Shown here in pieces: positions 10,802 through 31,900 of a DNA stretch of 64,000 nt. The DNA lies in NCBI GenBank assembly GCA_003054655.1, contig QAYZ01000015.1, positions 1-64,000 on the forward strand, written 5' to 3'. The DNA is from Spartobacteria bacterium LR76. Its GTDB lineage: Bacteria; Verrucomicrobiota; Verrucomicrobiia; Chthoniobacterales; Terrimicrobiaceae. The stretch's first letter is position 1. Each line of letters opens with the position of its first letter. The notes beneath the pieces were generated by a model that was not told the origin of the DNA, did no database searches, and saw nothing but the letters and a program-made list of their open reading frames with translations. A program made the translations under genes and the position numbers.

Positions 10802-11017
10802 CAGGAAAACTGGAGAAACTCGATTGCTGCCGCAACTTTGAGTGTCAGGATCCCTCCCATTTCCCATCGATGTCTCGTCTCTCCCCATTCGCATTTGTGC
10901 TGGCGTCTTCACCGATAATCGGCGGTGATGCGTTTAGCGAACCGCCGCCCGGGCTTTCGGGCTCCGCTGCGAAAGGGATTCCTCCCCGCTGAATCCGCGA
11001 AGGTTATCTTCACTTCC

Positions 11018-13471
11018 ATGCCCATTCCCCGTCTCTTCTCCGTGGCTCTGCTTTTCGCTTCCCTTGTTGGACCCATGCACTCCCAGGCGACCGACATTGA
11101 TATCGCTGGCAGGCAACTGGATCCCGCCACCGCACTGTGGTATGACAAACCGGCCTCCCAATGGGTCGAAGCGCTCCCTTTGGGCAACGGCCGCCTGGGA
11201 GCGATGTTCCATGGCTCGCCAGCGAACGAGCGCATCGTGCTCAATGACATCACCGTCTGGTCTGGCGGACCGCAGCCTAACGCCAACCGGCCGGATGGAT
11301 GGAAGCATCTTCCAGAGATTCGTCAGGCCATCCGCGAAGGGCGGTACAAAGATGCCGAGGGCCTGTGCAATCGCTTCCTCACCTGCCAGGCCAATTACGA
11401 CGAGAACAAATACCAGATGCTGGCCGACCTGGAGCTGAACTTCGACCTGCCGCCGGGAACCATTGATCACTATCGCCGCTGGCTGGATCTGGAAACCGCC
11501 CAGGGTGGAGTGGAGTTCAAAATCGGCGATGTCACCTTCCGACGCGAGCTCTTCTGCAGCGCGCCTGACAAGGTGCTGGTCCAGAGGCTCACCGCCGACC
11601 GCCCGGGAGCGCTGACTTTCACCATGCGGCTCAGCCGGTCTGAGAAAGCAACCACCCAGTTCCGCCCTCCAGCGACGCTCGAGCTGACCGGCTCGACCGG
11701 ATCCAGTCTCGACTATCAGGCCAACGCCCGCGTCCTCGCCAAGGGCGGCCGCGTAAGCGGAGAAGGTGATACCATCAAGGTCGAAGGAGCCACCGAGGCG
11801 CTCATCCTCGTTTCCGCCAGCACATCCTATGCGATGGACTCTGAAAAAGGATATCGAGGAGCCGACCCTGCGGAAGCCAGCCGACAACTCGACGCCGCTG
11901 CGGCCAAGAGCTTCGACGCCCTTCAAGCCGCACACCTGGCCGAATATCAGAAGTACTTCAACCGGGTAAAACTCGACCTCGGTTCAACACCCGCCGCGGA
12001 AAAACCCACCGACGAACGTCTGCGCGCCTATGACAGCGGCAAGGACGATCCCGCGCTGGCTGCTTTGTTTTTCCAATACGGCCGCTACCTCCTCATTTCA
12101 TGCAGCCGGCCCGACAATCCCGCTCCAGCCAATCTCCAGGGGGTTTGGGCCGATGGGATGCGGACGCCATGGAACGGGGATTACACGCTCAATATCAACT
12201 TCGAGATGAACTACTGGCCCGCTGAACCCACCGGACTCAGCGAGATGCACACGCCGATGCTGCGCCACATCCAAAGCCTGGCGGAGCCCGGAGCAATCAC
12301 TGCGAAGGCGTACTTTGGCCCCGATACCGCAGGCTGGGTCTCCTCAGCCAAAAGCAATGCGTGGGGCTGGACAAGCCCGGGCGCCCGCCTGCCATGGGGC
12401 GTGTGGTTCGGCTCCAATGGCTGGCTGTGTCAGCACCTCTGGGAGCACTACGCTTTCACTCGCGATAAAGACTACCTCCGCTCCGTTTATCCGACCATGA
12501 AGGGCGCTTGTGAATTCTGGCTCTCACAACTCGTAGAGGGCCCTGATGGCCGACTCATTACGTCGCCCTCGTCGTCGCCGGAAAACACCTTCCGTACCGA
12601 TACCGGGGAAGTCGCCTCGGTGTGTGAAGGCGGAGCCATGGAAAAGGCCATCGTCTGGGACCTCCTCGACAATACCGCCCGGGCGAGCGCGGTTTTGGGC
12701 ATCGACGAGGGATTTCGCCAAAAGCTGAAGGAAACGCGAGATCGTCTCCGCCCTCCCCAGATCGGCAAGGCCGGTCAGTTAATGGAATGGGGCGGCGACT
12801 GGGACTTGAACGCGCCTGACGCAGCTCACCGCCACAATCATCTCTTTGCCTTGCATCCCGGGCATCAGATCACACCCCTCGGCACGCCGGAGCTCGCCTC
12901 CGCCGCCCGCAAGTCCATTGAGATGCGCGGCGATGGAGGCACCGGATGGAGCAAAGCCTGGAAGATCAACATCTGGGCCCGCCTGCGTGACGGAGACCGC
13001 GCCGCGAAGTTGCTCGCCGAGCAGTTGCGGCCCACTGACGAGCTCAAGGTAGTAATGAGCAAGGGAGGCACCTATCCGAATCTGTTCGATGCTCACCCGC
13101 CCTTTCAGATCGATGGAAATTTCGGGGCGACCAGTGGCATCGCCGAGATGCTCCTGCAAAGCAACCAGCCCGTCTCCGCGTCATCAAAGGCGGGGGCAGA
13201 CCAGTACTATCTTGATCTGTTGCCAGCTCTGCCGTCCCTGTGGCCGAATGGCTCGGTCACCGGTCTCCGCGCTCGCGGTGGATTCATCGTCGACTTGAGC
13301 TGGCAGGATGGACGGCTGGTCCATGCGGTGCTGCACAGTTCCACCGGAGGTCGCGGCACAGTCCGCTATTCTGAAAAACAATTCGACCTGTCGCTCCAAC
13401 CAGGGCAGTCCGTCATTCTCGACGCCTCCCTCAAGCCAGTCTCCAGCCTGCCTGCTAAACCCCGGAGCTAA
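11018..13471 (+). CDS. GH95 alpha-L-fucosidase
   Basis: Exported inverting fucosidase of 817 aa; characterised relatives remove alpha-1,2-linked fucose (some act on L-galactose). ATG 11018 is preferred over 10925 because it begins a clean signal peptide (MPIPRLFSVALLFASLVGP). Residues matching the catalytic set of Bifidobacterium AfcA are present: Asn392 and Asn394 in LNINFEMNYW, Glu522 in SSPENTF and Asp699 in QIDGNFG. Domain order is the usual N-terminal beta-sandwich, linker, (alpha/alpha)6 barrel (about 300-720) and C-terminal beta domain. Follows the fucose symporter and precedes a GH43 gene by 35 bp, suggesting an operon for fucosylated hemicellulose or pectin. Confidence 0.93.
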   Translation: MPIPRLFSVALLFASLVGPMHSQATDIDIAGRQLDPATALWYDKPASQWVEALPLGNGRLGAMFHGSPANERIVLNDITVWSGGPQPNANRPDGWKHLPEIRQAIREGRYKDAEGLCNRFLTCQANYDENKYQMLADLELNFDLPPGTIDHYRRWLDLETAQGGVEFKIGDVTFRRELFCSAPDKVLVQRLTADRPGALTFTMRLSRSEKATTQFRPPATLELTGSTGSSLDYQANARVLAKGGRVSGEGDTIKVEGATEALILVSASTSYAMDSEKGYRGADPAEASRQLDAAAAKSFDALQAAHLAEYQKYFNRVKLDLGSTPAAEKPTDERLRAYDSGKDDPALAALFFQYGRYLLISCSRPDNPAPANLQGVWADGMRTPWNGDYTLNINFEMNYWPAEPTGLSEMHTPMLRHIQSLAEPGAITAKAYFGPDTAGWVSSAKSNAWGWTSPGARLPWGVWFGSNGWLCQHLWEHYAFTRDKDYLRSVYPTMKGACEFWLSQLVEGPDGRLITSPSSSPENTFRTDTGEVASVCEGGAMEKAIVWDLLDNTARASAVLGIDEGFRQKLKETRDRLRPPQIGKAGQLMEWGGDWDLNAPDAAHRHNHLFALHPGHQITPLGTPELASAARKSIEMRGDGGTGWSKAWKINIWARLRDGDRAAKLLAEQLRPTDELKVVMSKGGTYPNLFDAHPPFQIDGNFGATSGIAEMLLQSNQPVSASSKAGADQYYLDLLPALPSLWPNGSVTGLRARGGFIVDLSWQDGRLVHAVLHSSTGGRGTVRYSEKQFDLSLQPGQSVILDASLKPVSSLPAKPRS

Positions 13472-13506
13472 GCAGAGAGCCTATCAATATCTCCGAAATT
13501 TCAGAT

Positions 13507-14895
13507 ATGATCCTTAAACAGGTAAAAATCCTCTTTTTCCTCGTCATGCTCACCGGACTTCGTCCTGCCATTGGGGAATCCTACTCCGCCCCTCACGCCG
13601 CCAACCCCATCCTCCCCGGCTACTATGCCGACCCATCAATCGTCCAATACGGGGGAAAGACTTATATCTACGCCACGCTCGATCCCTGGGGAGGCCAAAC
13701 CTTGGGCTGCTGGGAATCCCCGGATTTCCGCAACTGGACCTATCGTCCTCTTAACTGGCCAACCAAGGAAGCATGCACAAGCCCCACCTCAAAGTCGGCC
13801 GGCGTCTGGGCGCCCTCTGTGATGGAGGGGAAGGATGGAAAATTTCACATGGTCGTATCGGTGGGGAACGAAGTGTGGGCCGGCATAGCCGATCAGCCGC
13901 TCGGCCCATGGCGCGATGCCATGGGAGGCAAGCCCCTGATACCGTCAAATTTTCGTCCCGGCTTCCACATGATCGATGCGGAGTATTTCCTCGACGATGA
14001 TGGCCAGGCGTATCTGTATTGGGGCTCAGGCCTGAATTGGAAGAACGGACGTTGCTGGGCGGTGAAGCTGAAGCCTGACATGGTGACGTTTGACGGAGAG
14101 GTGCAGGACGTCACACCGACCAATTACTTCGAAGGCCCCTTCATGCTCAAACGCCACGGGCTCTACTTTCTGATGTATTCCGCAGGGAACACCATGAAGG
14201 AGGATTACCGGGTTCACTACGCGGTCGGAAAAACGCCTTTCGGTCCGTTCACCGAGGGTCCCGGAAGCCCGATTTTGATAAGTGATCCCGAGGCAAATGT
14301 CGTGAGTCCCGGGCATCACGCTGTCTTCAGCTTCGAGGGCCGAGACTATATTTTGTACCACCGTCATAGCATCCCTCGGGATGCCAAATTCATGGGACGG
14401 CAGGTGTGCGTCGATCCTATCGTTTTTACGCCCGATGGAAAAATCGAGCGAGTTTCTCCCACGCATGCCGGGCCATCAATTATTCAGGGCCGCGAGGAAT
14501 CTTTGGCAGCGATCTCGGCGGGTGCGGTCGCGTCGGCCAGCAGCGAGGAGTCACCAGCCAGAGCGGCATCTCTGGTACTCGACGGAAACTACGCCACCCG
14601 CTGGGCGCCCGCTCGCGACACAAACGGCGTCTGGCTCCAGCTGGATATTGGTGCCGAGAAACCGGTGACCCGTCAAATCATACGCCCCGAGTATGCCTGG
14701 AAACCCTATCGCTTTACCATCGAGGCGTCGTCCGATGGCAAAACCTGGAAGACGCTCGCCGATTTCCTGAAAGAACCAGCGATTGGCTCACCCATCGTCA
14801 TTGCCCAGCCTGTTACCGCCCGTTACCTGCGCCTCGTCTTCCCGGAAGATGTCCCGGGTTCCGCGATTTCGCTTTTCGAGTGGTCTGTCCAATAA
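13507..14895 (+). CDS. GH43 arabinofuranosidase/xylosidase with C-terminal F5/8-type C domain
   Basis: Secreted five-bladed beta-propeller hydrolase of 462 aa, with signal peptide over roughly residues 1-23. The GH43 triad is recognisable: base Asp42 in YYADPS, pKa-modulating Asp157 in MIDAEYFLDDDG and acid Glu209 in FEGPFM. Residues ~325-462 form a discoidin domain (ASSEESPARAASLVLDGNYATRW, LQLDIG, ARYLRLVF) likely binding polysaccharide. Starts 35 bp after GH95 and is followed after 18 bp by the next GH43-like gene. Within GH43 the substrate (arabinan, xylan or galactan side chains) cannot be fixed from sequence alone. Confidence 0.9.
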   Translation: MILKQVKILFFLVMLTGLRPAIGESYSAPHAANPILPGYYADPSIVQYGGKTYIYATLDPWGGQTLGCWESPDFRNWTYRPLNWPTKEACTSPTSKSAGVWAPSVMEGKDGKFHMVVSVGNEVWAGIADQPLGPWRDAMGGKPLIPSNFRPGFHMIDAEYFLDDDGQAYLYWGSGLNWKNGRCWAVKLKPDMVTFDGEVQDVTPTNYFEGPFMLKRHGLYFLMYSAGNTMKEDYRVHYAVGKTPFGPFTEGPGSPILISDPEANVVSPGHHAVFSFEGRDYILYHRHSIPRDAKFMGRQVCVDPIVFTPDGKIERVSPTHAGPSIIQGREESLAAISAGAVASASSEESPARAASLVLDGNYATRWAPARDTNGVWLQLDIGAEKPVTRQIIRPEYAWKPYRFTIEASSDGKTWKTLADFLKEPAIGSPIVIAQPVTARYLRLVFPEDVPGSAISLFEWSVQ

Positions 14896-14913
14896 GGCCG
14901 ATCATACAACCAA

Positions 14914-15885
14914 ATGAAAAAAGCACTCATGTCACTGCTCTCGCTCCTAGCCTTCGACGCCTTCGCGGCCGACGGAGGCTTCTTGTTTGTCACCTTCCGT
15001 GGCGAAAGCGATCCCATGGCCGAGCAGATCTATTTCGGCATCAGCCATGATGGTCGTGAATGGCGTGCCCTAAACGGCGGCAAACCTGTCCTCGTCAGCG
15101 ATGTCGGAGAAAAGGGTATGCGAGACCCCTTCCTGTTGAGATCGTCGGATGGCAAAAAATTCTACATCATTGCCACCGATCTTTCGATCAATCGGAACCG
15201 CAATTGGAAGCGCGCAGCGCAGCAGGGTAGCCGCAGCATCGTCGTCTGGGAATCGGATGATCTGGTTCATTGGGCCGGACCTCGCCTGGTCGAAGTGGCT
15301 CCGCCCGAGGCCGGCTGCACCTGGGCGCCTGAGGCCATCTACGATTCAGCGAGCCAACGCTATCTGGTGTACTGGGCTTCACCGACAAAGAGCGACAATT
15401 TCGCAAAGCATCGGATCTGGGCGGCATGGACAAACGATTTTCAGAAGTTTAGCGCCCCATTCATTTATATTGAGAAGCCAGCCTCGGTGATCGACACGGA
15501 TATCGTCCACGGGACCGATGGAAAATATTACCGATTCACGAAGGACGAAAGTGCGAAGAAAATCCTCATGGAGGCGAGCGACGCAATCGAGGGCACGTGG
15601 ACGTCGGTGCCCGGATTCTCTCTGGCCGACCTCGACGGATACGAAGGGCCTCAGTGCTACCTCGCCTCACCAGCGTCGGGCAACAAGCCTGCCTCATGGT
15701 GTCTCGTCCTCGACCGGTATAGCAAGGGGACGGGCTACCAGCCATTTGTGACCACCGATCTCGCCAGCGGCGACTTCACGCCTGGCGAGGGCTTCCGATT
15801 TCCTTTCCCGTTCCGGCATGGTTCCATCCTTCCACTTACGGAGGCGGAATATCGTCGCCTGGAGGCAGCTTTTCCGGAAAAATAA
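14914..15885 (+). CDS. GH43-like secreted beta-propeller, single-domain paralogue of the 58-60 kb gene
   Basis: 323 aa exported protein (signal peptide MKKALMSLLSLLAFDAFA). A GH43-like triad can be placed at Asp71 (MRDPF), Asp194 (VIDTDI) and Glu244 (GYEGPQ). It is strikingly similar, from GGFLFVTF to the C-terminal RHGSILPLTEAEYRRLEAAF, to the N-terminal half of the tandem protein encoded at 58227-60389. Last gene of the fucosidase operon, 18 bp after the previous GH43. Substrate is unknown; members of this GH43-like group sit in loci for arabinose- or xylose-containing glycans. Confidence 0.78.
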   Translation: MKKALMSLLSLLAFDAFAADGGFLFVTFRGESDPMAEQIYFGISHDGREWRALNGGKPVLVSDVGEKGMRDPFLLRSSDGKKFYIIATDLSINRNRNWKRAAQQGSRSIVVWESDDLVHWAGPRLVEVAPPEAGCTWAPEAIYDSASQRYLVYWASPTKSDNFAKHRIWAAWTNDFQKFSAPFIYIEKPASVIDTDIVHGTDGKYYRFTKDESAKKILMEASDAIEGTWTSVPGFSLADLDGYEGPQCYLASPASGNKPASWCLVLDRYSKGTGYQPFVTTDLASGDFTPGEGFRFPFPFRHGSILPLTEAEYRRLEAAFPEK

Positions 15886-15974: not shown

Positions 15975-16083
15975 GCCTGGACATAGCGCTTTCCCCAAAA
16001 CGCTCTTAGGCTACAGCCAAGAAAGTGCATCTACCATGTAGATACACGCTGAAGACTCCCCCAACATTCCACCAGCGAACACA

Positions 16084-16797
16084 ATGAAGACATTTCGTTC
16101 CTCGTCTCTTTCTGGACACCGCGCCGCGTTTTCGCTCATCGAGCTTCTGAGCGTGATGGCGATCATCGGTATGCTGACCGTTGCCGCAGTGCCCGCTCTG
16201 AATTCGATCAATTCGTCCGGGGGGGTAACAAAAGCCGGGTATGATATTGGCGGGTTGTTGGAACAAGCCAGGGCGTTCGCTATGGCACGGAATACGTATG
16301 TCTTTGTCGGAGTGGCAGAGGTCGATGGCGCTCAGCCCGAATCCGCTGTTCAAACCTCGGCAGGAGTGGGGCGCGTCGTGGTGGCCGCAGTTGCCTCCAA
16401 GAGCGGACGCAAGAACATGGATCCGTCAAACCTCGTTCCGGTTTCCAAAGCATTCCGATTTGATAACATTCATCTCGCAGATCAGCTCAGTACGAGCGGT
16501 AATCTGGCCCGCCCGACCGTAGACTCCAGCAACAAGGTCGGAAGCGACAGCTTCATTGCAAACACTTCTTATGCCTTCCAGTGGCCCGTGAGCGGCAATG
16601 CCAAGTACTCCTTCAAGAAGGTGATTTGCTTCAGCCCCTCCGGTGCAGCCTCGAATGACATCGCCACAGGTGATTTTGCCAGGTGGATGGAAGTCGGCCT
16701 CGTCGAAGCCCGAGGCAACAGTATTCCGGTCACACTGAATGCCGCGGCGGTTCAGCTCGACGGAGTGACTGGCTCTGTGAATATCTATCGCCCGTAA
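16084..16797 (+). CDS. Verru_Chthon cassette protein D, GspH-like pseudopilin
   Basis: 237 aa protein with a class III prepilin-type N-terminus: a short basic leader, then AFSLIELLSVMAIIGMLTV with the processed Phe16 and conserved Glu at mature position 5, followed by one hydrophobic helix. The residue before the cleavage site is Ala15 rather than the usual Gly. The rest is a small beta-rich globular domain as in GspH/FimT pseudopilins (assembled in the inner membrane, exposed to the periplasm). First of four tightly packed genes whose N-termini match, in order, GspH, GspI, GspJ and GspK. Function of the cassette is undescribed. Confidence 0.83.
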   Translation: MKTFRSSSLSGHRAAFSLIELLSVMAIIGMLTVAAVPALNSINSSGGVTKAGYDIGGLLEQARAFAMARNTYVFVGVAEVDGAQPESAVQTSAGVGRVVVAAVASKSGRKNMDPSNLVPVSKAFRFDNIHLADQLSTSGNLARPTVDSSNKVGSDSFIANTSYAFQWPVSGNAKYSFKKVICFSPSGAASNDIATGDFARWMEVGLVEARGNSIPVTLNAAAVQLDGVTGSVNIYRP

Positions 16798-16815
16798 ACT
16801 CGCTGAGGCGAGCCC

Positions 16816-17316
16816 ATGCGCGTCCCTGTGAAAACTCCCTCCCGAAAACTACCAGTTCGTAGGCGCCGGAGCGCATTCAGTCTGGTGGAAATCACGATCG
16901 CGCTCGCGATCGCAGGGTTCTGTTTATTAGCCGTGGTCGGTCTCCTGCAAACCGGACTGACCAGCGAGCGGGATACGCTGGATCGCACCGTCGGTACGGA
17001 TATCCTTTCGAGAATTTATCAGGATCTGACCGGGATGCAGCAAACCAACACTCTGTCTTCAGAGTTTAAATTCGATCCGGAATCCACCGCCGTGCAGACG
17101 ATCTGGTTTGCGGATGCCTCTACGACGAACAGTACCGCGGCCAACTCCCGCTATCGGGCTTCTGTCACGTTCAGTCCTCCCACAGGATCGAACCGCACGG
17201 CGACGCCAGCGCGTCTGCTTGTCACGTGGCCCGCGGCGGCTGATCCGGCTGGAAGCGCCCTGCCGTCGAAATATTCGGGCTCAATCGAAGTCGCCACCTC
17301 CCTGCAGCGTCGTTAG
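16816..17316 (+). CDS. Verru_Chthon cassette protein B, GspI-like pseudopilin
   Basis: 166 aa with a basic leader (RRRRSA) and a prepilin motif AFSLVEITIALAIAGFCLL; Phe21 would be the first mature residue and Glu25 the conserved Glu5, with Ala at -1 instead of Gly. The VEITIALAIAG pattern matches minor pseudopilin GspI, which forms part of the pseudopilus tip. Start ATG 16816 lies 18 bp after the first cassette gene. The globular part is short and rich in Ser/Thr. Confidence 0.8.
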   Translation: MRVPVKTPSRKLPVRRRRSAFSLVEITIALAIAGFCLLAVVGLLQTGLTSERDTLDRTVGTDILSRIYQDLTGMQQTNTLSSEFKFDPESTAVQTIWFADASTTNSTAANSRYRASVTFSPPTGSNRTATPARLLVTWPAAADPAGSALPSKYSGSIEVATSLQRR

Positions 17317-17341
17317 GAAAACGCCTCCGAACCCGATCGAG

Positions 17342-18274
17342 ATGCTCCCCTCTTCCTCCCTCCCAGCCATGAGCACGCAGGTGCACCCATCGGATCGCAC
17401 TGTCAAGGTATCCCCTGGGTTCACCCTTATCGAGCTTTTGGTCGCGGTCTCGGTGCTGGTCCTTTTGCTGCTGCTGGTGATGGAGATTGTCCAAAGCGGT
17501 ACGCTCGTCATCGGCGGCAGCCGCAAACATCTCGCAGCGGATGCCGAGGCACGGGAGATGTTCAACCGGTTTGCCATCGACCTGGCCGGGATGATCCGAC
17601 GGGCTGACATGGACGCGGTTTTCACCAACGCAGCTGGCACCAATGCGGCAATGATTTTCTACAGCGAATCCCCAGGCTTTTTCGCCTCGGGCGTGACGGC
17701 GACTAATCGCAGCCCGCTTTCCCTGATCGGTTATCGCGTGAAAGATGCGAAGCTGGAGCGTCTGGGCAAGGGCCTGGCGTGGACAGGCAATTCCGATACG
17801 CCGGTCTATCTCACCTACGCCACGAATAACCTCGCTACGAATTCGACGCCCGTTAGCGGCAGTACCATCACAGACGTGTGGGGGACTCTTTCCTCGAGCA
17901 ACGACCCCGATTATCATTTGCAGGCCGACGGGGTGTTTCGGTTTGCCTTCTGCTTCCGCAAGAAGGATGGCACGTATTCGCTCACCTTACCTACTGATCC
18001 GGTCTCCGGCGCATTTTCCACCGTGTCCTCTGTAGTATTGACGCTAGCCGTGCTCGACGACGAGTCGCGCAAGATCGTCAAGGATACGAGCAAGTTGGCA
18101 ACGGCGCTGGACAACCCCACGGAGGCCAACATGGCGGCAGGCACTCTGCCCGGCAAGATCTGGCAGGAAAACGTGGCGGACGCCCAGACTTTTGCTTCTA
18201 AAGCCGGAATCCCGGTATCCGCGGCCTCGCGGGTTCGGATTTATCAGCGTTCCTTCCCCCTTAATACGCCATGA
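17342..18274 (+). CDS. Verru_Chthon cassette protein C, GspJ-like pseudopilin
   Basis: About 310 aa. The open frame extends upstream to 17108 but that overlaps the previous gene, so I start at ATG 17342 (25 bp after its stop); ATG 17369 is equally possible. The prepilin motif is canonical: SPGFTLIELLVAVSVLVLLLL, with Gly26 before Phe27 and Glu at mature position 5. The long hydrophobic helix and the following MEIVQSG resemble GspJ. A beta-rich periplasmic domain follows. Its last four bases overlap the start of the next gene (ATGA), indicating translational coupling. Confidence 0.8.
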   Translation: MLPSSSLPAMSTQVHPSDRTVKVSPGFTLIELLVAVSVLVLLLLLVMEIVQSGTLVIGGSRKHLAADAEAREMFNRFAIDLAGMIRRADMDAVFTNAAGTNAAMIFYSESPGFFASGVTATNRSPLSLIGYRVKDAKLERLGKGLAWTGNSDTPVYLTYATNNLATNSTPVSGSTITDVWGTLSSSNDPDYHLQADGVFRFAFCFRKKDGTYSLTLPTDPVSGAFSTVSSVVLTLAVLDDESRKIVKDTSKLATALDNPTEANMAAGTLPGKIWQENVADAQTFASKAGIPVSAASRVRIYQRSFPLNTP

Positions 18275-21200
18275 TCGCGAATTCCCCGTTCCGCAAATTC
18301 CATCGAAAAGCGCGAAAAAGCAGCCAGCGCGGCATGGCTTTGGTGGTGATCCTCGCCTGCGTCGTACTGCTCACGGTGATGGTAATGGCCTATTTTTCCT
18401 ACTCCTCGCTACAACGCCAGATCTCCAGCTCCAGCGCAAACCAGACCTCGGCTAATGTCTTTGCCATCGGAGCCGTCAATACTGTGCTGGGCGACCTGAA
18501 GCAGGAAATCGCAGCAGGGTCGAGGATTACGAATTTTACGGCGGGGGCGACGACCGTGACGAACTATTTCCCGGCGACCGCCTCGGCAGCCATTCCCGCC
18601 CTATCCGGATTCGCAACAAACAATGGATTGGAGAACCTGATCAAGATCAGCCGATCTGGTTCGAACTTTTTCCCTGACACCTACGCCAACGCGAGCACAT
18701 TTCCCCCTTCCAGCCGGGCCATCAATCTATCAACAACAAACGCGTCAAAGAACGGGCGCTATGTCAGCGCGGAAGACTGGAATCGTCCGCTCCTTCTGGC
18801 TCGCCAAAACTCAAACATCACCAGTGACGACACGCCGGTCGCGTCCTTCGTACCGCCCGACTGGATCCTCGTTAACCGGAGCGGCGCCAACCCGTCCAAT
18901 CCGACTGCCTCCAGCGTTCAGTGGACACAAGACGTCTCCAAGACAAACACCGTAATCGGGCGATACGCCTACGCCATTTATGACGAAGGGGGACTGCTCG
19001 ACGCCAATGTCGCCGGCTATCCAAGCGGCTTGGCCGTCACCAATGCAGCCTACAAAAATGCCCAGGCGTACGCTGATCTTACCCGCATCGGCTTGAAGAC
19101 GGGAAAAATCGACCAACTCGTGACCTGGCGAAACCAGGCCACGCTCGAAGGAGGCGCCAAGGTGACGAATTATCCGGCGTACATCACTGAGAATACGAGC
19201 GGATTTCTGCGTACGGCCAATACGAACCTCTTTTCCGGAAAAAGCGATCAACTCTTCGTCAGTCGGAAACAACTCATCGCTTACTTCAACAAGGCATTGG
19301 GAGGCACCAATGATGCGGACGTGCGGAACTCCCTGCAATATCTCACGCATTTCAGCCGCGACATCAACCAACCCGTCTATGTCGCTCCCGTGCAGACGAA
19401 CAGTGCCGCGCCTGTGGTGCTCCCCGCCAGCCTCGGCGGCAACAGTGCGACTGGCGGCGACAAGCTCATCAACCCCAGCTTTCCCGCCACTCGCGTACAG
19501 GCGGCGTTCACCCGCAACGATGGCACCATCGCCAAAGCCGGAGAACCTCTGGTAAACAAGCGGTTCCCGCTCAATCGCCTGGCCTGGGTCACCTATAAAG
19601 GACCTAGCGCTTCGCGGAGCCAGTCGGACGCCGACATCAAGGCCTTGATCGACAATGGTATTCCCTGGTCCTACCTTCAGCAGGGAACCGCCCAGAACAT
19701 TGAAAAGAACTTCGGCCTGACATGGGATTCCTCGCGAGATCGCTGGGTTTACAATGTCCATACCGGGGGGACATCGGGAAATCGCATCATCAAACTCGTC
19801 GGTCGCCCCGACGGAACCTCACCCGATTCGCAGCGGTTTGTTCAGGATTCCGGCCGAGATCCGGACTTTTTTGAATTGCTCAAGGCTGGAATTAGTCTGG
19901 GCTCACTCGGCAAGGTGGCCACCCCTTCGGATACGAGTGTTAATGGCAGCATGGTTCCTGCCGGTTATGCCGCTGCCGAAGTACCGGCGAACCTCGCCTA
20001 CAATTTTGACGCCTCGGTCGACTATCACATTATTCAGATAGGAGCCAATATACTCAGTGCTGTGAACCCGACCAGCTACCCGATACGGATCGCGTTCGAT
20101 GACGGGAGCGCTCGTGGTCTCTGGGAGTTTCAAGGCGTCACCGACCTCCCCTATCTGAGCTATGTCTTCAATGGCGTGCTTCGTACGCGAATGTCCAGCC
20201 CGGCAGTGGTAGGAGGCGCCGCCGGCACGACGCAACCGGCAGAATATCCTCTTGCCAAGCCCGGAGTCGTTACAGATCAAGGCAACGCGTACGCCATTCA
20301 GGTACCCGCAGTATGGAATCCTTATGATCCAAACGGAGCTTCGGGCGTACTTCGCCCAAAGAATTTCAGAATCGTGGTGGACAGCAATGACCCGGTCTCT
20401 CTCTCAAAAGGACTCGCAAATCATTCCATCTGGTGCGCAGCGCAAGCGAGCCCAAGGAGCACGCCGATCGGTGGTCAGAATCATGGCCTGGGCGCTCCGT
20501 CGCGACCGGGCGGGGTTTTTTCGTTTGATGCGACGACGGCTCCGACCTCAAAAACCGGAACGCCGATCAGTGATGCGGTGACGTTTAATGATGGCAACGG
20601 CAATCTTTATCGGGAGCCAACGCTGATCTTCCGGACATCGGTGGGCGGTGCTACGCGCACCGGCACGCCCGGAAATATCACTTCCATCGACGCAAATCCG
20701 CTTCCGAATGCCTCAGATCCCGTGGGCACGCAGTTCGCCCCCCTCGTCTTGGGCCAGTTTCCTCTGGCGTTTATGTTTAGCGGGATCATCAAGGTGGTGG
20801 AAACATACGATACCACGACCACTCCCGTCATGTACGCCGGATCAGGCGTGATCGGGCCTGGCGGCGTGACCTCGAGCAACCGAGTGTATCTCACCTATCG
20901 TCTGCAATATCAAGACGAAGGGGGAAACTGGGTCACTTACGACACCAAGTATGGACGGACGACTTCCGGGCTCTTTTCCTATCAAGGCCGCTTTGACGAT
21001 CCCACTCCCACCATGTCCCCCACCGTCATTCATGGTCCCAATAACTTCAGCGCTTACAGTTGGGCAGGGTGTATCGATCCTCGTACCGCACGCTTTGGCA
21101 TGCTCATGCAGGTCGCGAACGATCAAAAGGCCGGAGCATACCTCAACCAACCCCCTGCTTTCGGTGGCTGGGTATGGGGAGCAAACGGCAGCCCGGCGAT

Positions 21201-22512
21201 CTCCGATGGTATTACCTTTCCTATCCGCCCGGACAATATGGCGGGGTTCTTGTTTAGTAATTTTGATGAAAACGATCAGGTCAACGTCTGGTCCCTGAAC
21301 AACAATGCAAAATCGCTGGACCTCCTGCCCTCCCCGATGACCGATGTCCCGTTTCCATCCTTCTCGGCGGGATGGACGAGGCCTATCGCAAAGGCACGAC
21401 AAGCATGGGTGCCCACCTTTCCTCCTGGGATGTATGCGCAGAACAATCCCAATGTCCCCTTCTACTGGGGACGGTTCACGGGGAAGGACACATTTTCCGG
21501 CTCCCCGATACAACCTGCGTACTATGCCGATGCCGATGGCGTGGTGCGACGTAGCGCCGGGGCCTATGTGCCAGCGGGCACAAATGTCAGCGCGTCTACT
21601 CCGGTGGGCTTGCCTACCTCGAGCATCCAAGGTTTCAGCGGCAAGGCATCGTCGTTGGTCACCCCCGCAAGTTCGTCACCCTTCACACAATCTCAGAGCA
21701 GGCCGCTTTTGTTGCACCGACCATTCCGGACCGTCGCCGAGTTAGGCTCCGTTTTCCGCGATCTTCCGTGGAAGAACCTAGATTTCTTCACGCCGGAGAG
21801 CGGCGATGCGGCGCTCCTCGATCTCTTTTGCATCAATGAGACCTACACGCCAAACAGTCTCGTCGCCGGCAAGGTCGACCTGAACACACGCCAGGCCCCC
21901 GTGATCGAAGCCATCGTCAGCGGGGCCTACGCGGACGATCCCAAGGTCAACAACGCCACCGTGGGAACCATCTCTCCGACACTGGCGAAGGCGATCGGCG
22001 TTGCGCTCGCAGCCCGCACCACATCTGCGGCGACCGGTCCGCTCCAAAATGTCTCGGAACTGGTGGGCAAATGGACGTCTGCCAAGGCGATATCGCCGGG
22101 CATTCCCTATTCGCCAGCGGTACCCGGCAATGGCTCTGGGATCGACCTCCCCTTTCCGAACTACAAGGACGGACAATCTTCCTATTCCGGATTCAGCGGG
22201 CAGGACTTGAGCAATGCCTTCGCGGCGACAGGAAACTTCGGAGGAAATGCCGCGCTACAGACCAGCATGTCGCAGATTCAGCGATTCCGGGAAGCTCCTG
22301 TACGGGCGCTGGCTGCGGCGGGGCAGACCCGTGTTTGGAATTTATTGATCGACCTCGTAGCCCAGGTCGGGCGCTACCCAGCGGGAACCGGCGGCGCGAA
22401 TCCCCTGGCCGCCTTTGTCGTGGAAGGCGAAGCTCGTTTGTGGGTTCATGTATCCATCGATCGATACACAGGAGATATCCTGGATAAACAGATCGAGGTG
22501 GTGAAGGAGTGA
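18271..22512 (+). CDS. Verru_Chthon cassette protein A, giant GspK-like protein
   Basis: 1413 aa, starting in an ATGA overlap with the preceding gene. The N-terminus has a basic leader, then RGMALVVILACVVLLTVMVMA, a PilX/GspK-type entry helix without the Glu5 of other pseudopilins, as in GspK. A very large Ser/Thr/Asn-rich beta region follows (about 60-1150). Near the C-terminus, GKVDLNTRQAPVIEAI (about 1200-1215) and, after a gap, SPTLAKAIGVALAARTT..GPLQNVSELVG (to about 1264) copy the pattern of the GspK alpha domain (NxNTA...VL; GPF.s..eL). By family analogy it would cap a pseudopilus; substrate or adhesin role is unknown. Confidence 0.8.
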   Translation: MIANSPFRKFHRKARKSSQRGMALVVILACVVLLTVMVMAYFSYSSLQRQISSSSANQTSANVFAIGAVNTVLGDLKQEIAAGSRITNFTAGATTVTNYFPATASAAIPALSGFATNNGLENLIKISRSGSNFFPDTYANASTFPPSSRAINLSTTNASKNGRYVSAEDWNRPLLLARQNSNITSDDTPVASFVPPDWILVNRSGANPSNPTASSVQWTQDVSKTNTVIGRYAYAIYDEGGLLDANVAGYPSGLAVTNAAYKNAQAYADLTRIGLKTGKIDQLVTWRNQATLEGGAKVTNYPAYITENTSGFLRTANTNLFSGKSDQLFVSRKQLIAYFNKALGGTNDADVRNSLQYLTHFSRDINQPVYVAPVQTNSAAPVVLPASLGGNSATGGDKLINPSFPATRVQAAFTRNDGTIAKAGEPLVNKRFPLNRLAWVTYKGPSASRSQSDADIKALIDNGIPWSYLQQGTAQNIEKNFGLTWDSSRDRWVYNVHTGGTSGNRIIKLVGRPDGTSPDSQRFVQDSGRDPDFFELLKAGISLGSLGKVATPSDTSVNGSMVPAGYAAAEVPANLAYNFDASVDYHIIQIGANILSAVNPTSYPIRIAFDDGSARGLWEFQGVTDLPYLSYVFNGVLRTRMSSPAVVGGAAGTTQPAEYPLAKPGVVTDQGNAYAIQVPAVWNPYDPNGASGVLRPKNFRIVVDSNDPVSLSKGLANHSIWCAAQASPRSTPIGGQNHGLGAPSRPGGVFSFDATTAPTSKTGTPISDAVTFNDGNGNLYREPTLIFRTSVGGATRTGTPGNITSIDANPLPNASDPVGTQFAPLVLGQFPLAFMFSGIIKVVETYDTTTTPVMYAGSGVIGPGGVTSSNRVYLTYRLQYQDEGGNWVTYDTKYGRTTSGLFSYQGRFDDPTPTMSPTVIHGPNNFSAYSWAGCIDPRTARFGMLMQVANDQKAGAYLNQPPAFGGWVWGANGSPAISDGITFPIRPDNMAGFLFSNFDENDQVNVWSLNNNAKSLDLLPSPMTDVPFPSFSAGWTRPIAKARQAWVPTFPPGMYAQNNPNVPFYWGRFTGKDTFSGSPIQPAYYADADGVVRRSAGAYVPAGTNVSASTPVGLPTSSIQGFSGKASSLVTPASSSPFTQSQSRPLLLHRPFRTVAELGSVFRDLPWKNLDFFTPESGDAALLDLFCINETYTPNSLVAGKVDLNTRQAPVIEAIVSGAYADDPKVNNATVGTISPTLAKAIGVALAARTTSAATGPLQNVSELVGKWTSAKAISPGIPYSPAVPGNGSGIDLPFPNYKDGQSSYSGFSGQDLSNAFAATGNFGGNAALQTSMSQIQRFREAPVRALAAAGQTRVWNLLIDLVAQVGRYPAGTGGANPLAAFVVEGEARLWVHVSIDRYTGDILDKQIEVVKE

Positions 22513-22513
22513 T

Positions 22514-23293
22514 ATGAAACCGACTATTCTTTGTCTGACTGCCATCATCGGTTTGTCAGCCCTTCAGGCGCAGGATGCGCAAAAGCCGCCCCTGCCAGCG
22601 GGTCCTCTGCTCAAGCGGACGGGAGAGTATTCCGCCTGGACTGTCATCAGCCAGAATACCGCGGCGTCCAAATCCCCGACGGATGGATCAGCAGCCGCGA
22701 ATACGGACCCAAGCAAAAAGGATGAGATACCGGCTGAATCTCGTTACGTGAAGACCGGAGACACAATCTGCGAAGCAACGACCAGTACGAAAGGCGTCCG
22801 CCAGGAAATCTGGCGAGTGGCAGGATTGCGTGTGACGATAGGCGCAGACCATGCCCCGCTGGTATTTCCAGACTTTGGTGGCGATGACATCTATTCCGTC
22901 GATTTCAAGACATCCGACTTTGCAGGACTGAATTGGATCTCGCCGACGAGCTATGCTGGCATCCAAAAATGGCAGGGCCGTGATTGCATCGTATTCCAGG
23001 GAAAAGTCAGCCCGTTCAGCGTCATGCAACGCCAGGGCCAATCTCAAGGAGAGATTACCATGGGAGAAAAGGGAGATATGTCGGCAGACGACATCATGGT
23101 TCCGGCCACGGCCTACATCGACGTGGAAACGCGGCTCCCCCTGTTTGCCCAGTTTGGGGACGAAAAAAGAACCTATCAATACGGCCCCGCGCCGACAGCT
23201 GCGCAGCAGCTCCCGGCAGAGCTTGCCAGCCAGGTGAAGGAGTACGTGGCACGCATTCAACGGCTCTCGGCCCCTCCTACCAGGCCGTTTTGA
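22514..23293 (+). CDS. secreted protein of unknown function at the end of the pseudopilin cassette
   Basis: 259 aa with signal peptide (MKPTILCLTAIIGLSALQA). It begins one base after the stop of the giant GspK-like gene behind a good ribosome site (AAGGAG), so it belongs to the same transcript. After a low-complexity Ser/Thr/Asp linker (about 45-75) the chain alternates strands ending in AYIDVETRLPLFAQFGDEKRTYQY; the pattern is faintly like LolA-type lipid- or ligand-binding sheets, but this is only an impression. No catalytic motif, transmembrane anchor or lipobox is visible. Confidence 0.7.
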   Translation: MKPTILCLTAIIGLSALQAQDAQKPPLPAGPLLKRTGEYSAWTVISQNTAASKSPTDGSAAANTDPSKKDEIPAESRYVKTGDTICEATTSTKGVRQEIWRVAGLRVTIGADHAPLVFPDFGGDDIYSVDFKTSDFAGLNWISPTSYAGIQKWQGRDCIVFQGKVSPFSVMQRQGQSQGEITMGEKGDMSADDIMVPATAYIDVETRLPLFAQFGDEKRTYQYGPAPTAAQQLPAELASQVKEYVARIQRLSAPPTRPF

Positions 23294-23373: not shown

Positions 23374-25113
23374 ATGACACCACTGTTCTCGTTTCTAGCC
23401 ACCGCCGGACTTTCCGTAGGTGGCACTGTTTCCTCTGCTTCCATTCATCTCGGCCTGATCGATTACCTGATATTGGCTATCTATATTATCGTCGTGGTCG
23501 GAGTAGGGTTCGCCCTGCGGGGAAACATTCGGAACGCCACGGATTTCTTTCTCTCCGGTCGCTCGATCCCGGTCTGGGTGACAGGGCTCGCGTTCCTTTC
23601 GGCCAATCTGGGCGCCCAGGAGGTCATCGGAATGGCTGCGTCCGGAGCCAAATACGGAATCATGACAAGCCACTTCTATTGGGTAGGGGCGATCCCGGCC
23701 ATGCTGTTTCTGGCGATTTTCATGATGCCTTTTTATTACGGTTCCCGGGCACGATCGGTACCGGAGTATTTGAAGCTGCGGTTTGATGAAAAGACGCGCG
23801 CGCTCAATTCGCTCACCTTTGCACTCATGACGGTCATCTCCTCGGGAGTGTCCCTTCACGCTCTGGCCTCCCTCATGGGACTGCTCCTGGGATGGAACTA
23901 CGAGGTCTCCATCGCAGTATCCTCGCTGGTCGTGATGATCTATGTCTTCAAAGGCGGCCTCACCAGCGCGATCTACACCGAGGTGATGCAGTTTTTCCTC
24001 ATCGTGCTCGGGTTTTCCCCGCTCGTACTCCTGGGCCTTCGCGACCTCGGCGGCTGGGAAGGCATGATGAGCCGCTTGCCGGAAACTTTCACCCACTCGT
24101 GGAAATACATGGGCACCACAGACAACCCCATGGGGGTGGAGTGGATCGCCATGGTCTTTGGCCTCGGGTTTGTCCTCTCGTTTGGCTACTGGTGCACGGA
24201 CTTTCTGGTGGTGCAGAGAGCGATGGCGGCGAATTCCATGTCCGCCGCACGGCGCACCCCGATCGTCGGGGCGGTGCCGAAAATGTTCTTTCCGCTGATC
24301 GTCATCATTCCCGGCATGATCGCCGTGGCCCTCATGGCCAAGGAGGGATCAGGCTATGCAATCCCGGCAAACTCCGCGGGAGCGCCCGACTACAACATGG
24401 TCATTCCCTCGCTGCTGGCTCATTACTGTCCAACCGGCCTCCTCGGCTTGGGGCTAACGGCGCTAATGGCCTCATTCATGTCCGGCATGGCTGGCAATGT
24501 CACCGCATTCAATACGGTTTGGACGTATGACATCTATCAGTCCTACATCGGTCGGAACAAGAGCGACGCGCATTACCTGGGCATCGGAAAAATCACCACC
24601 ATCTTCGGCATCCTCGCGTCCATTGGATTCGCGTACTTTGCCAAGTCCTTCAACAACATCATGGATGCGCTCCAGTTGGTGTTTGCCTTCGTCAATGCCC
24701 CGCTTTTCGCGACTTTCCTTCTCGGCATGTTCTGGAGACGCGCCACAGGAAACGGCGCTTTTTTGGGTCTCTTGTCCGGCACCGTCGCCGCCATGATCTT
24801 TCATGGTTTGTCGCTGACGGCGGGAGGTTCTCCCGGAATGAAAGGCGGATGGCTCCACCCGGTCTTTTCCTTCAGGTCGGAAATGGCGTTGAATTTCTGG
24901 CTGGCGATCGTTGCCTGGACGACTTGCTTTTTGATCACGATCAGTGTTTCGCTGGCCACGAAGCGCGAAAAATCGGACAGTGAGTTGAAAGGCCTGGTGT
25001 ACTCGCTGACCCCGAAAACCTACGATGATGAGAAGCATTGGTACAAGCGCCCAGCCATCCTGGGCCTGCTGGTGCTCGGCATGACCGTGCTGCTCAACAT
25101 TCTCTTCTGGTAA
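23374..25113 (+). CDS. SSS-family sodium:solute symporter
   Basis: Inner-membrane sodium-coupled carrier of 579 aa with about 14 hydrophobic helices. The first helix contains DYLILAIYIIVVVGVGF, followed by NATDFFLSGRSIPVWVTGLAFLSANLG, a standard SSS opening; GGLTSAIYTEVMQFFLIVLG is the family's helix-6 signature. Sugar-type SSS proteins in CAZyme loci import monosaccharides such as galactose, xylose or uronates; the substrate here is not determined. Forms a pair with the 77-aa gene that follows after 4 bp, and a weak operator-like motif lies just upstream. Confidence 0.88.
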   Translation: MTPLFSFLATAGLSVGGTVSSASIHLGLIDYLILAIYIIVVVGVGFALRGNIRNATDFFLSGRSIPVWVTGLAFLSANLGAQEVIGMAASGAKYGIMTSHFYWVGAIPAMLFLAIFMMPFYYGSRARSVPEYLKLRFDEKTRALNSLTFALMTVISSGVSLHALASLMGLLLGWNYEVSIAVSSLVVMIYVFKGGLTSAIYTEVMQFFLIVLGFSPLVLLGLRDLGGWEGMMSRLPETFTHSWKYMGTTDNPMGVEWIAMVFGLGFVLSFGYWCTDFLVVQRAMAANSMSAARRTPIVGAVPKMFFPLIVIIPGMIAVALMAKEGSGYAIPANSAGAPDYNMVIPSLLAHYCPTGLLGLGLTALMASFMSGMAGNVTAFNTVWTYDIYQSYIGRNKSDAHYLGIGKITTIFGILASIGFAYFAKSFNNIMDALQLVFAFVNAPLFATFLLGMFWRRATGNGAFLGLLSGTVAAMIFHGLSLTAGGSPGMKGGWLHPVFSFRSEMALNFWLAIVAWTTCFLITISVSLATKREKSDSELKGLVYSLTPKTYDDEKHWYKRPAILGLLVLGMTVLLNILFW

Positions 25114-28916: not shown

Positions 28917-31900
28917 TCAGTGCCCCGGAGCTGTCGTCCCCATGGCCACCGGTGACGGATAGGTAGACGCAGCCTTCATGATCTCCTCACAGGCCCAGTG
29001 CGAGGCTGGGACGTCCGAGAAGGACGGCGTGCCGCTGTGCGGCGACCCGGTCCGACCGGTCATCCTGTTCGCTGCCACGACAAACTCTGCCCGCGTCACC
29101 GGATCGTCAGGGCGGAACGCGCCAGATTCATCCGCCTTTACCCAGCCCTCTTTCACCACGCGGCGAATCTCGTCGGCGTACGCTGTATTGACACCGACGT
29201 CTTTCAAAGCAGGCATATCTTTCCCTTTCAGCCCCTGCATCCGCGCCATGATGGCAGCCAGCTCGCCACGCGAAATGGGGTTGTCGGGATGAAATCGTTT
29301 CGCGTCGTCCCCTGCTACAAGCCCCTTGCTCGACATGTAGGCCACGTCGTCGAAATATGGCGCATCACGCTTTACGTCGATGAAGGAGCAGTCATAGGCG
29401 CCCTTGTCCGTGTAGTCGTCCACCAGGCCTGCGAGTAATGACACCGCTTCGCCCCTGGTCAGCTTTTGATTCGGACGAAATGTCCCGTCGGGATACCCGC
29501 TGATGTAGGCCAGATAAAGGTCCGGGCTCGGGTCTTCGATGCGCTCGCCGACGATCCGCAGTTCCGCGATTTCAAAAATCGCATAAGGTTTCGCCGGCAT
29601 AAAGAAGCGCAGATACCGATAGGCTCTGGCCCTTTCCCCCTCTCTGACCACCAGGGTCTGGAGTTCCGGTGTTGCCTCGGCTTTGTTCTCCGTCAGGAGC
29701 GTCCAGTGTTTGCGGTCGTTTGACCCATAGACCACAGCCTCCGCAATACGAATCGGAAAGCCGTCGCGAGCCTTGATACGGAACGCTTCAGATTTCACCT
29801 TGAAGCGATTGCCAAAATCCATCGTGATGTTTTTGTCGAAGCCCCACAGCCCGCCAAAGGTCAGCGGATCACCATCGGCCATCCGGGCACTTCCCTTTTC
29901 TGTCGAGGACCACGCCTTGCAATAGTCCAGCGTACCATCGGGCAGGCGCGGCGTCAGAAGCTCCAACCCATCTGCCGCCTGCTTTAATGCGCGCAGATTC
30001 CGTGCGGTCAGTGCGGATTTAAAGGCCTGCTCCGTCACGGAAACATAGCGTTGCGAGGGATCGTAGGCGCGCGCCACCGAGTCCAGCGCAGCCTGAAGAT
30101 CCCGGGCCACAGGGATGTCGACCCGAAGCGTCCGGATGGTGTCACCATCCCGGGCTGTGACATAAAGCGTATGATCACCAACCTGCTCCATGGTGGGAGT
30201 CCATGACAGCACACCGGTCTCCGCGTCAAATTTCGCCCCGGTCGGCAGATTATCCGTCCGGTAGCTCACGTCGCTCGAAGGATGGCCGGAGGCTATTACC
30301 TCTTCCAAATGTCCGCCCGCAAAGGCAGGGATCGAAATCCTGTCGCCCTGGCAGGCAAACTCGGGAGATCGAAGGAGGGAAGCATCCGTCTCGATCCGAT
30401 CAAAATCAACGACTGCACGGCCCGCCAGCGCTGTGGCTTCAATATAAATAAGGCCGCTGCGCTGAAAGGTCGTGGTCACATAATTCCAGCGTCGCTCGGT
30501 GTCGGGAACAGAGATTTCCTGAAGACAGCCCTGGCGTTCAAAATCCTCATCAGCATAAAAACGCAATCTGACCAGAGAGTCCGAGCGAATGCGGAAACCT
30601 GCGCCCTCGGCCAACCGGCCGGAGACCACCATGGAACGAGAAACCCCAGGATCGAGCACCATGCGGACAAAGCCAGTACCGTCTGGGTCACGCACGATCT
30701 GGAGAGGCTTATCGTTCGGTGAACCGGGATAGCGATCTCCTGCCGCCGCATGGCTGGAAAGATCCATGAACTGATATTCGATCTGCTGCCCCTCCACCGG
30801 CACGCCATCCCGGACGACTTGCAATGGCGGAAGCTCGGTCGCCAGCGCGCGCCTCGCCTTCTCCGGGTTTGGCGAGGAATCCGAAGCCGAAGCGGGAAGC
30901 CCAATCCAGAAATCAAAGGCATAATTATGGATTTGATCGAGATACTTCCCGGATCTCGCCAGAATTTCCCGACCCACCGCATTGGAGTCGTAGGCCGCCT
31001 TGATATATTGATATGGCCCGGACTCCAAATCGAACCCCATCGCTTTATAATAATGATAACCAGCGGGGATGCCATTACCTCCGATGGCTCCGCGGCCAAA
31101 ATAGCTAATCTGGTCATATCGGGCCTTGTAGTCCGGCTGCTTGGGGTCGGTCTCTGAAAACACCGAAACCCAGGGCTCCAGGCCGAAGCCGATATTGTAT
31201 TTTGCGAAAAGAGCCGCGCCCCTGGGCAATCGATCGTCAAGGAAGTGCAGAGGGGATACTCCATCCTTCGCTTTGGTGACCGTACCGTTGACTGGATCCA
31301 GCCTGGTCCGCTGAAACTCGATGGTCTTTGCCATCATGAGCAGATTATCGATGTTGCCGCCCGCATGAGGCTGATCTCTGCCCATTTCCACCACCTGCAA
31401 GCGGGGCTCCACGGCCTCTCCGGTTTTGTCGTCGCGAGTGACCATGCGGATCTGCTGCTTGATGGAGCCGTTGCGACCTTGATTTGGTGACGTCGCATTT
31501 ACGGTCGTCCACTCGACAGCCTGCTTGTAGTCCTCGGTTTCATTCCCGAGGATTGTCGAGGCCAGATAGCCCATGATCGCATAGGAATGCTGATTCATGA
31601 AATAGCCATTGCGCTCGATGCAGTTTTTTCGAATCGGATAGATACAGTTTTTCTGCAACGCATCCACCATGTCGCCGGTCACGGCCAGTTGCCGATTTCC
31701 TGGCGTCGTCGAGCGAAGAATGTCCACGGCGCTACAGAGAGTGTAGACGTATTTCCCGATCTTGATGTGACTGTCGGGAAAAGCCTGCGGGAAAAAACTC
31801 TCATCGGTGCGCGACCCGTACCACCGGATGATCTCAACCGGAGTCTTCCGATAGTCTTCATTCCCGGTGACAAGGTAGAGAATCGTATGCACCCATGCCA

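Follow-up and report, generated by a model that had tools for sequence, protein, structure and literature searches.

A minor-pilin cassette with an oversized GspK-like subunit and a partner of predicted LolA-like fold in a Verrucomicrobiota polysaccharide locus: candidate interchangeable tips for a type 4 filament

H-I-J-K minor pilins act as primers of type 4 filaments, at whose tip they are placed (PMC7541494). In Myxococcus xanthus, three FimU-PilV-PilW-PilX-PilY1 clusters accompany one motor (PMC7541494), and in Streptococcus sanguinis a lectin module is borne on a minor pilin and was modelled at the tip (PMC9934059). Pseudomonas aeruginosa no longer performs type II secretion when either XcpV (GspI) or XcpW (GspJ) is lost (PMC6211770), and a pseudopilin is among the genes over-expressed on alginate in Verruconatronum alginivorum (PMC13274419). 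The present study deals with four genes named D, B, C, and A, and with a fifth gene, E, in a window (the whole stretch of DNA analysed) of 64,000 nucleotides, positions 1 to 64,000 of contig QAYZ01000015.1 of Spartobacteria bacterium LR76. This bacterium belongs to the Verrucomicrobiota, which are known as polysaccharide degraders of soil and water. I propose that D-B-C-A-E is one of about 20 interchangeable minor-pilin tip kits of a type 4 filament that are used with polysaccharide loci, and I give this proposal a rough probability of 0.52.

The cassette resembles the GspH-I-J-K (XcpU-V-W-X) set of the type II secretion system (T2SS) in its collinear order, its leaders, a K subunit without Glu5, and the predicted GspK fold. 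However, it lies outside the T2SS operon, its K subunit is about four times larger, it has an extra protein of predicted LolA-like fold, and such cassettes occur in genomes without a detected T2SS. With M. xanthus it would share several paralogous clusters served by one motor, a set of four minor pilins with a secreted fifth component, and a K without Glu5; in contrast, about 20 kits are scattered among sugar genes here, the large module lies inside K, and the fifth protein is small and predicted to be LolA-like (PMC7541494). In S. sanguinis PilB/PilC, a tip pilin likewise carries a large additional module, which in PilC is a glycan-binding lectin, although that organism is monoderm and its module is at the C terminus of another subunit (PMC9934059); the A insertion matched only generic beta-sandwiches. 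Pseudopilins are also amplified in V. alginivorum, with 67 homologues of the one in the alginate cluster, but that family is PulG-like, and an H-I-J-K cassette is not described in the available part of the text (PMC13274419).

All the cassette genes lie on the plus strand. D (16084..16797, 237 aa, leader AFSLIELL) is GspH/FimU-like, B (16816..17316, 166 aa, leader AFSLVEITIALAIAG) is GspI/PilV-like, C (17342..18274, 310 aa from the chosen start, leader GFTLIELLVAVSVL) is GspJ/PilW-like, and A (18271..22512, 1413 aa) is an oversized GspK-like subunit. The D-B and B-C gaps are 18 and 25 nt, and C and A overlap by 4 nt. With 22.3, 24.1, and 21.5 bits, respectively, D, B, and C exceed the cut-off of 21.2 bits for Pfam N_methyl and are the only N_methyl matches in the window; A has a prepilin leader and helix and lacks Glu5. 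The four packed prepilin-type genes of a preliminary description of this DNA were recovered, and its claim of collinearity with gspH-gspI-gspJ-gspK was upheld by the D-B-C-A order, the leaders, the missing Glu5 in A, and the pairing of profiles. For this pairing, reference sets of GspG, GspH, GspI, GspJ, and GspK (14-20 sequences each) came from the T2SS operons of the source genome and its relatives. The best hhalign partners were GspH for D, GspI for B, GspJ for C, and GspK for A in 8/8 rows, which cover the window's own cassette type (Dv) and the canonical Verru_Chthon type. D matched GspH with 97.6 % (next, GspG with 95.4 %), B matched GspI with 94.6 % (next, GspH with 91.3 %), and C matched GspJ with 94.8 % (next, GspH with 93.3 %). 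The Dv-type A still matches GspK when its N-terminal helix is taken away (85.6 %, E 5.6e-6), and this match is then carried by the motif NRPFRSV..ELG...VNLNT...VL.AL; it was 90.7 % with a larger alignment and 92.7-93.7 % with the insertion left out. The NCBIfam equivalog cut-offs were not reached by D for GspH (21.2/80), C for GspJ (19.6/64.85), or A for GspK (23.3/130), and B had no GspI match; the GspH and GspK of the resident T2SS also miss the NCBIfam cut-offs, and the resident GspJ matches no family. Judged by gene order, motifs, profiles, and the predicted fold of A, the four proteins are minor pilins of the H-I-J-K kind.

Prediction of pseudopilin folds had been suggested as a check in the preliminary description. 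The model of A was made on an orthologue, L118 (1096 aa), and reached a predicted local distance difference test score (pLDDT) of 81.2 and a predicted template-modelling score of 0.85. When it was aligned with 983 chains by VIA, ranks 1-3 were all XcpX/GspK, with Z of 14.1, 14.0, and 13.4 against 5.1 for the next chain, on a scale where values under about 13 may be non-specific for helical models. The three alignments cover 233/261, 228/259, and 270/295 residues and span residues 54-1095, 54-1096, and 18-1096 of the model. A PDB sequence search with A found nothing. By this model, A has a GspK fold interrupted by a variable insertion several hundred residues long. In the window, the insertion occupies approximately 19381..21699 on the plus strand (about residues 371-1143), with boundaries placed by the profile gaps of short forms. 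Mean identity is 42.0 and 47.5 % in the core flanks, falling to 28.3 % over the insertion as a whole and to 20.6 % within its beta-sandwich. This beta-sandwich (about residues 554-780 of the L118 model) gave only generic matches, with Z of about 5. Natural short A proteins of 702, 793, and 933 aa lack most of the insertion. They are found at L193 (702 aa), L192 (793 aa), and L194 (933 aa), in each case still behind D-B-C.

The unit had been described as ending at 22512, at the end of A, but this extent has to be revised, since a conserved fifth gene, E (22514..23293, plus strand, 259 aa), begins one nucleotide past the A end. The open reading frames (ORFs) directly 3' of A are mutually homologous in nine of the ten Dv cassettes of the source genome (weakly in Dv10), and Dv02 has no E. 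No E-like gene was found behind the 11 canonical A genes of this genome. With an E profile, 15 of 58 genomes gave 49 matches, of which nine are in the source genome; 48 begin no more than 100 nt after an A gene, and the remaining match is a tandem copy that follows one of the 48. Such tandem duplicated E genes behind one A were seen at G027:C12:93105-94420 and L090:12218-14234. E follows 48 of 58 A C-termini; it is lacking after the three short A proteins, after six further A proteins, and after one C-terminus that is partial. When the partial C-terminus is left out, E accompanies 0/3 short A proteins and 48/54 others (p 0.003), a link based on three proteins, of which two belong to the same family.

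The N-terminus of E is signal-peptide-like, as read from its sequence. Neither Pfam nor NCBIfam has a family that matches the window E, and among 48 E proteins two give one weak unrelated NCBIfam match each. A PDB sequence search with E gave weak ion-channel and lectin matches only, and no LolA. The E model (pLDDT 86.6) matched LprG (3mha) in Foldseek with E 1.1e-5, a probability of 1.00, and template-modelling scores of 0.38-0.47; in VIA, Z was up to 11.7, with 10.8 for RseB and 10.0 for LolA. E is therefore predicted to have a LolA/LprG/RseB-like fold. Since this fold comes with a tight coupling to A, a chaperone or a carrier is suggested, and the role of E is most likely that of a chaperone or ligand carrier for the insertion of A. 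GspN of the Acinetobacter T2SS is likewise an accessory protein with a fold of the lipid-handling type tied to a type 4 filament machine, although it is an AsmA-like beta-taco in the inner membrane, while E would have a soluble-type LolA-like fold (PMC12802150). For T2SS lipoproteins, the authors of that paper have speculated on a chaperone of the LolA type (PMC12802150). No description of a LolA-fold partner of a giant GspK-fold tip adhesin was found in the openly licensed PMC literature, as far as its available parts go.

The preliminary description had named the four genes as a Verru_Chthon cassette. This naming was rejected, since all four fall under the curated NCBIfam cut-offs and are not formally named by these families: D scores 25.8 bits (cut-off 70, TIGR02596), B 40.1 (51.4, TIGR02598), C 27.6 (256.5, TIGR02599), and A 31.0, or 39.1 in the genome search (332.3, TIGR02600). 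No paper on Verru_Chthon was found in the openly licensed PMC literature. The source genome has 22 A genes, of which 11 are over the TIGR02600 cut-off and 11, including the window A, are below it; two of the places matched are halves of one gene. A profile from alignment A1 assigned 10 of the latter to one type (Dv) and left one outlier (Dv11). As judged from these profiles, the window cassette is of a sister type of Verru_Chthon, to which 10 of the 22 A genes belong. The two types share a four-protein make-up, their occurrence in Verrucomicrobiota, and several copies per genome, and hhalign pairs the D and B profiles, after trimming, with their canonical counterparts (97.6 and 94.0 %). They differ in that the trimmed C and A profiles match weakly (15.1 and 26.0 %), E is absent behind the 11 canonical A genes, and the gene order is different in most: Dv cassettes are mostly D-B-C-A, whereas canonical cassettes are mostly B-C-D-A or B-C-A-D.

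All three Glu5 pilins lie near 20 of the 22 A genes, Ch07 and Dv07 being without them; in Ch04, C and D lie about 5.5 kb beyond B. Of the 133 N_methyl matches of the source genome (E <= 1), 60 are in 20 cassettes with three each, 4 are in the T2SS, 7 are in a system on contig C11, and 62 are singles. These 62 single prepilin-like genes lie outside cassettes and machines, and none is within 3 kb of another single. The A, B, C, and D distances are intercorrelated across nine Dv cassettes with r of 0.89-0.93, and those of A and E with 0.51. Dv11 was left out of alignments A1 and A2 and of the correlation test because its A is an outlier without a match to the A1 profile. This locus has an 867-aa ORF between C and A (C9:263412-266015, L057) and A is followed by a gene for a secreted protein in which BLAST shows no similarity to E.

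One scan of genome contigs yielded the best 80 of 148 relatives, which represent 76 distinct loci. Their records are labelled as Verrucomicrobiota groups, except one labelled Proteobacteria. Upstream of the 60 foreign A starts with enough sequence, exactly D-B-C was found in 44 cases, variants in 5, and none in 11. E was found downstream of 46 of the 60 A ends with enough sequence. Some loci are rearranged, namely A-E-D-B-C (L128, L136), A-E-D-C (L098), and C-A-E-D-B (L101). One relative that carries a cassette of this sort, Chthoniobacter flavus Ellin428 (L067), is in culture.

Is the sugar setting common to the cassettes? Two neighbours on each side of the 22 cassettes make 88 places; three had no callable gene and three duplicates were dropped, leaving 82. 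Among the families listed (25/82) were Peripla_BP_3 (8), GH130 (3), AXE1 (3), and GH38, GH43, GH5, GH16, and Hepar_II_III (2 each). The control consisted of 88 of 107 genes from random regions, with 25 of their 183 families listed, so that most singletons are unseen; the first 20 control genes, scanned fully, included one glycoside hydrolase and a single GntR-type regulator, which carries a sugar-binding domain. Peripla_BP_3, a domain of the sugar-regulator type, was found in 8/82 neighbours and at most 1/88 controls (p 0.015). Around 47 foreign loci, the raw counts among 81 nearest neighbours were GH38 5, Peripla_BP_3 5, sugar MFS 3, and SASA 2, together with carbohydrate-binding module (CBM) domains. 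I regard these neighbour statistics as weak. Whether each cassette sits beside secreted enzymes was a check suggested in the preliminary description. The surroundings of carbohydrate genes stand, against a partial control of random genes, but not every cassette adjoins an enzyme, and so the sugar setting holds as a neighbourhood and not as a rule for each cassette. Surface-type proteins also recur beside Ch01-Ch11 and Dv01-Dv11, with PEP-CTERM in 8/82 and PATR in 5/82 neighbours.

The preliminary description had considered a machine encoded elsewhere, and this was borne out by a T2SS operon, type IV pilus parts, and a prepilin peptidase outside the window. In the source genome, GspF-family proteins were matched at C13:210 kb, C9:37 kb, and C11:27 kb. 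The T2SS operon (C9:28.2-38.7 kb) has its own GspG-H-I-J-K; GspG scores above its cut-off, the names of GspH, K, M, D, E, and F come from best matches that stay under the cut-offs, and I, J, L, and a further gene were named by position. Two tandem PilB-type ATPases, one of them checked by phmmer, are encoded at C11:583565-586931 (L048:15565-18931), about 3 kb downstream of the canonical cassette Ch09. PilA-PilC is at C13:210 kb, with the PilC identified by phmmer, two ATPases at C1:20-22 kb were taken for PilT/PilU by size and tandem position, and some secretins were taken as PilQ-like. There is one prepilin peptidase, at C9:498 kb. A third secretin/GspE/GspF system at C11:16-36 kb (L059, L060) has pilins of its own, and one 871-aa ORF among them has an N-terminus like that of a pilin. 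No H-I-J-K set was seen beside the type IV pilus genes. Since the 133 N_methyl matches all fall in cassettes, the T2SS, the C11 system, or singles, no further H-I-J-type cluster for a pilus was seen among them, although divergent ones could escape the profile.

Among the 58 genomes, a PilC-type GspF was found in 29/29 cassette carriers and 14/29 others (p 5e-6; p 0.007 within the family and 0.001 outside it), p-values that are rough because the classes rest on bit scores and the genomes are related. It is present in 20/20 carriers of the Dv type. Any of three T2SS parts was found in 25/29 carriers and 26/29 others, showing no association. PilY1 was matched in 0/58 genomes, in a search that left control genomes unmatched too. 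Because of the co-occurrence results for PilC-type GspF and the T2SS parts, an exclusive assignment to the T2SS, which was considered first, was demoted. In that reading, the kits would be cargo-selecting T2SS tips that replace the resident GspH-I-J-K and recruit the co-encoded polysaccharide-degrading enzymes for secretion. It would agree with the GspK fold of A, the T2SS operon in the genome, the T2SS parts in 16/20 Dv carriers, and the neighbouring carbohydrate-active enzymes (CAZymes), but the resident T2SS already has its own tip set, and four of the 20 carriers (G004, G005, G009, G036) are without T2SS GspD, T2SS-class GspF, and small GspK among the matches listed. These four genomes are 71, 97, 93, and 94 % complete; assembly gaps could explain some of them, less easily all four. 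Cargo-selecting T2SS tips are unlikely. The preliminary description had envisaged an exchangeable tip for a T2SS or a pilus; the H-I-J-K-type tip set stands, whereas the T2SS as the specific partner is not supported.

It is less probable still, at rather long odds, that the kits serve several machines, including the C11:16-36 kb system, or whichever type 4 filament motor a genome has. The C11 system exists in the source genome, and a C11-type GspF is present in all four T2SS-less carriers, but it is missing from 9/20 Dv carriers, and the C11 system has its own pilins. Very improbable is a role of the products as single membrane-anchored surface or periplasmic scaffolds with A plus E as the core (an orphan A, or A-E without D-B-C) and the prepilin leader only for processing. 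In its favour, Dv07 of the source genome and several of the 11/60 foreign A genes without D-B-C upstream have A-E alone; against it, the D-B-C order precedes 44/60 A starts and the distances co-vary. I consider the motor more likely to be PilB/PilC of the type IV pilus than the T2SS.

Several points weigh against the proposal of interchangeable tip kits, besides the limit on Z given above. The similarity of B, C, and D to their partners is confined to the N-terminal helix and is lost on trimming 35 residues, and the margins of B and C over the next-best partner are small. The canonical A loses its GspK match when trimmed (0.2 %), PF14341 (the PilX N-terminus) is not matched, and A has no Pfam family at E <= 0.1. 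The modelled A orthologue is 34 % identical to the window A, Foldseek alone found no match for the A model at E <= 1e-3, and the nearest K fold is that of T2SS GspK and not of a pilus subunit. The distances of canonical cassettes correlate less (r 0.34-0.60). CAZymes make up 5/21 nearest genes (10 Dv plus Dv11, including the window GH43) against 1/20 controls (p 0.18). Bit scores served to define the GspF classes, with a check on two proteins, and the best PDB match of the T2SS GspF is also PilC, with 166.9 bits against 302.7 for the pilus GspF.

According to the tip-kit proposal, D, B, C, and A would prime the filament and remain at its tip, by analogy with known systems, and the insertion of A may project from the extreme tip, if the fold of the orthologue applies. 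E would be a periplasmic partner of LolA/RseB fold, made together with A, which may chaperone or load the insertion. The motor would be PilB/PilC of the type IV pilus rather than that of the T2SS. Each kit would be expressed with the adjoining polysaccharide genes, so that a pilus or short pseudopilus might contact the glycan degraded there. A more specific version, with one type IV pilus engine, about 20 sugar-specific kits under the control of their own loci, and a giant adhesin of GspK fold with a variable insertion that a dedicated LolA-fold protein matures or loads, is tentative. The presence of about 20 kits, one of them inside a sugar-degradation locus, points to a single filament engine that may take different tips according to the sugar. 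If the tips are exchangeable, substrate choice would be read out at the filament tip. GspK-type subunits would then become carriers of large modules, and a LolA-fold protein would enter the world of pili and T2SS, for which the precedent found is speculation only (PMC12802150).

The surroundings of the cassette agree with the CAZyme locus of the preliminary description. Co-directional GH95, GH43, and GH43 genes (10925..15885, plus strand) precede D with gaps of 35, 18, and then 198 nt to D, and a sodium:solute symporter gene (23374..25113, plus strand) lies 80 nt 3' of E. As had also been stated, gspD, gspE, gspF, and gspG are not close by: no secretin or GspE/PilB-family ATPase was matched within the window, GspF-family matches are elsewhere, and N_methyl matches are limited to D, B, and C. 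A near-perfect palindrome, GTGCATCTACCATGTAGATACAC, lies at 16025-16047, 37-59 nt upstream of D. As a shared operator for the cassettes it was rejected, being absent from the 219 loci searched and from the inverted repeats upstream of the other cassettes of the source genome. Promoter and terminator scans gave counts inside the range of shuffled sequence. Further sugar genes in the window encode GH97, GH127, GH2, an arabinofuranosidase, and GH43. On the opposite strand, at 28917-32237 inside the sugar locus, a large protein with three S-layer homology domains is encoded.

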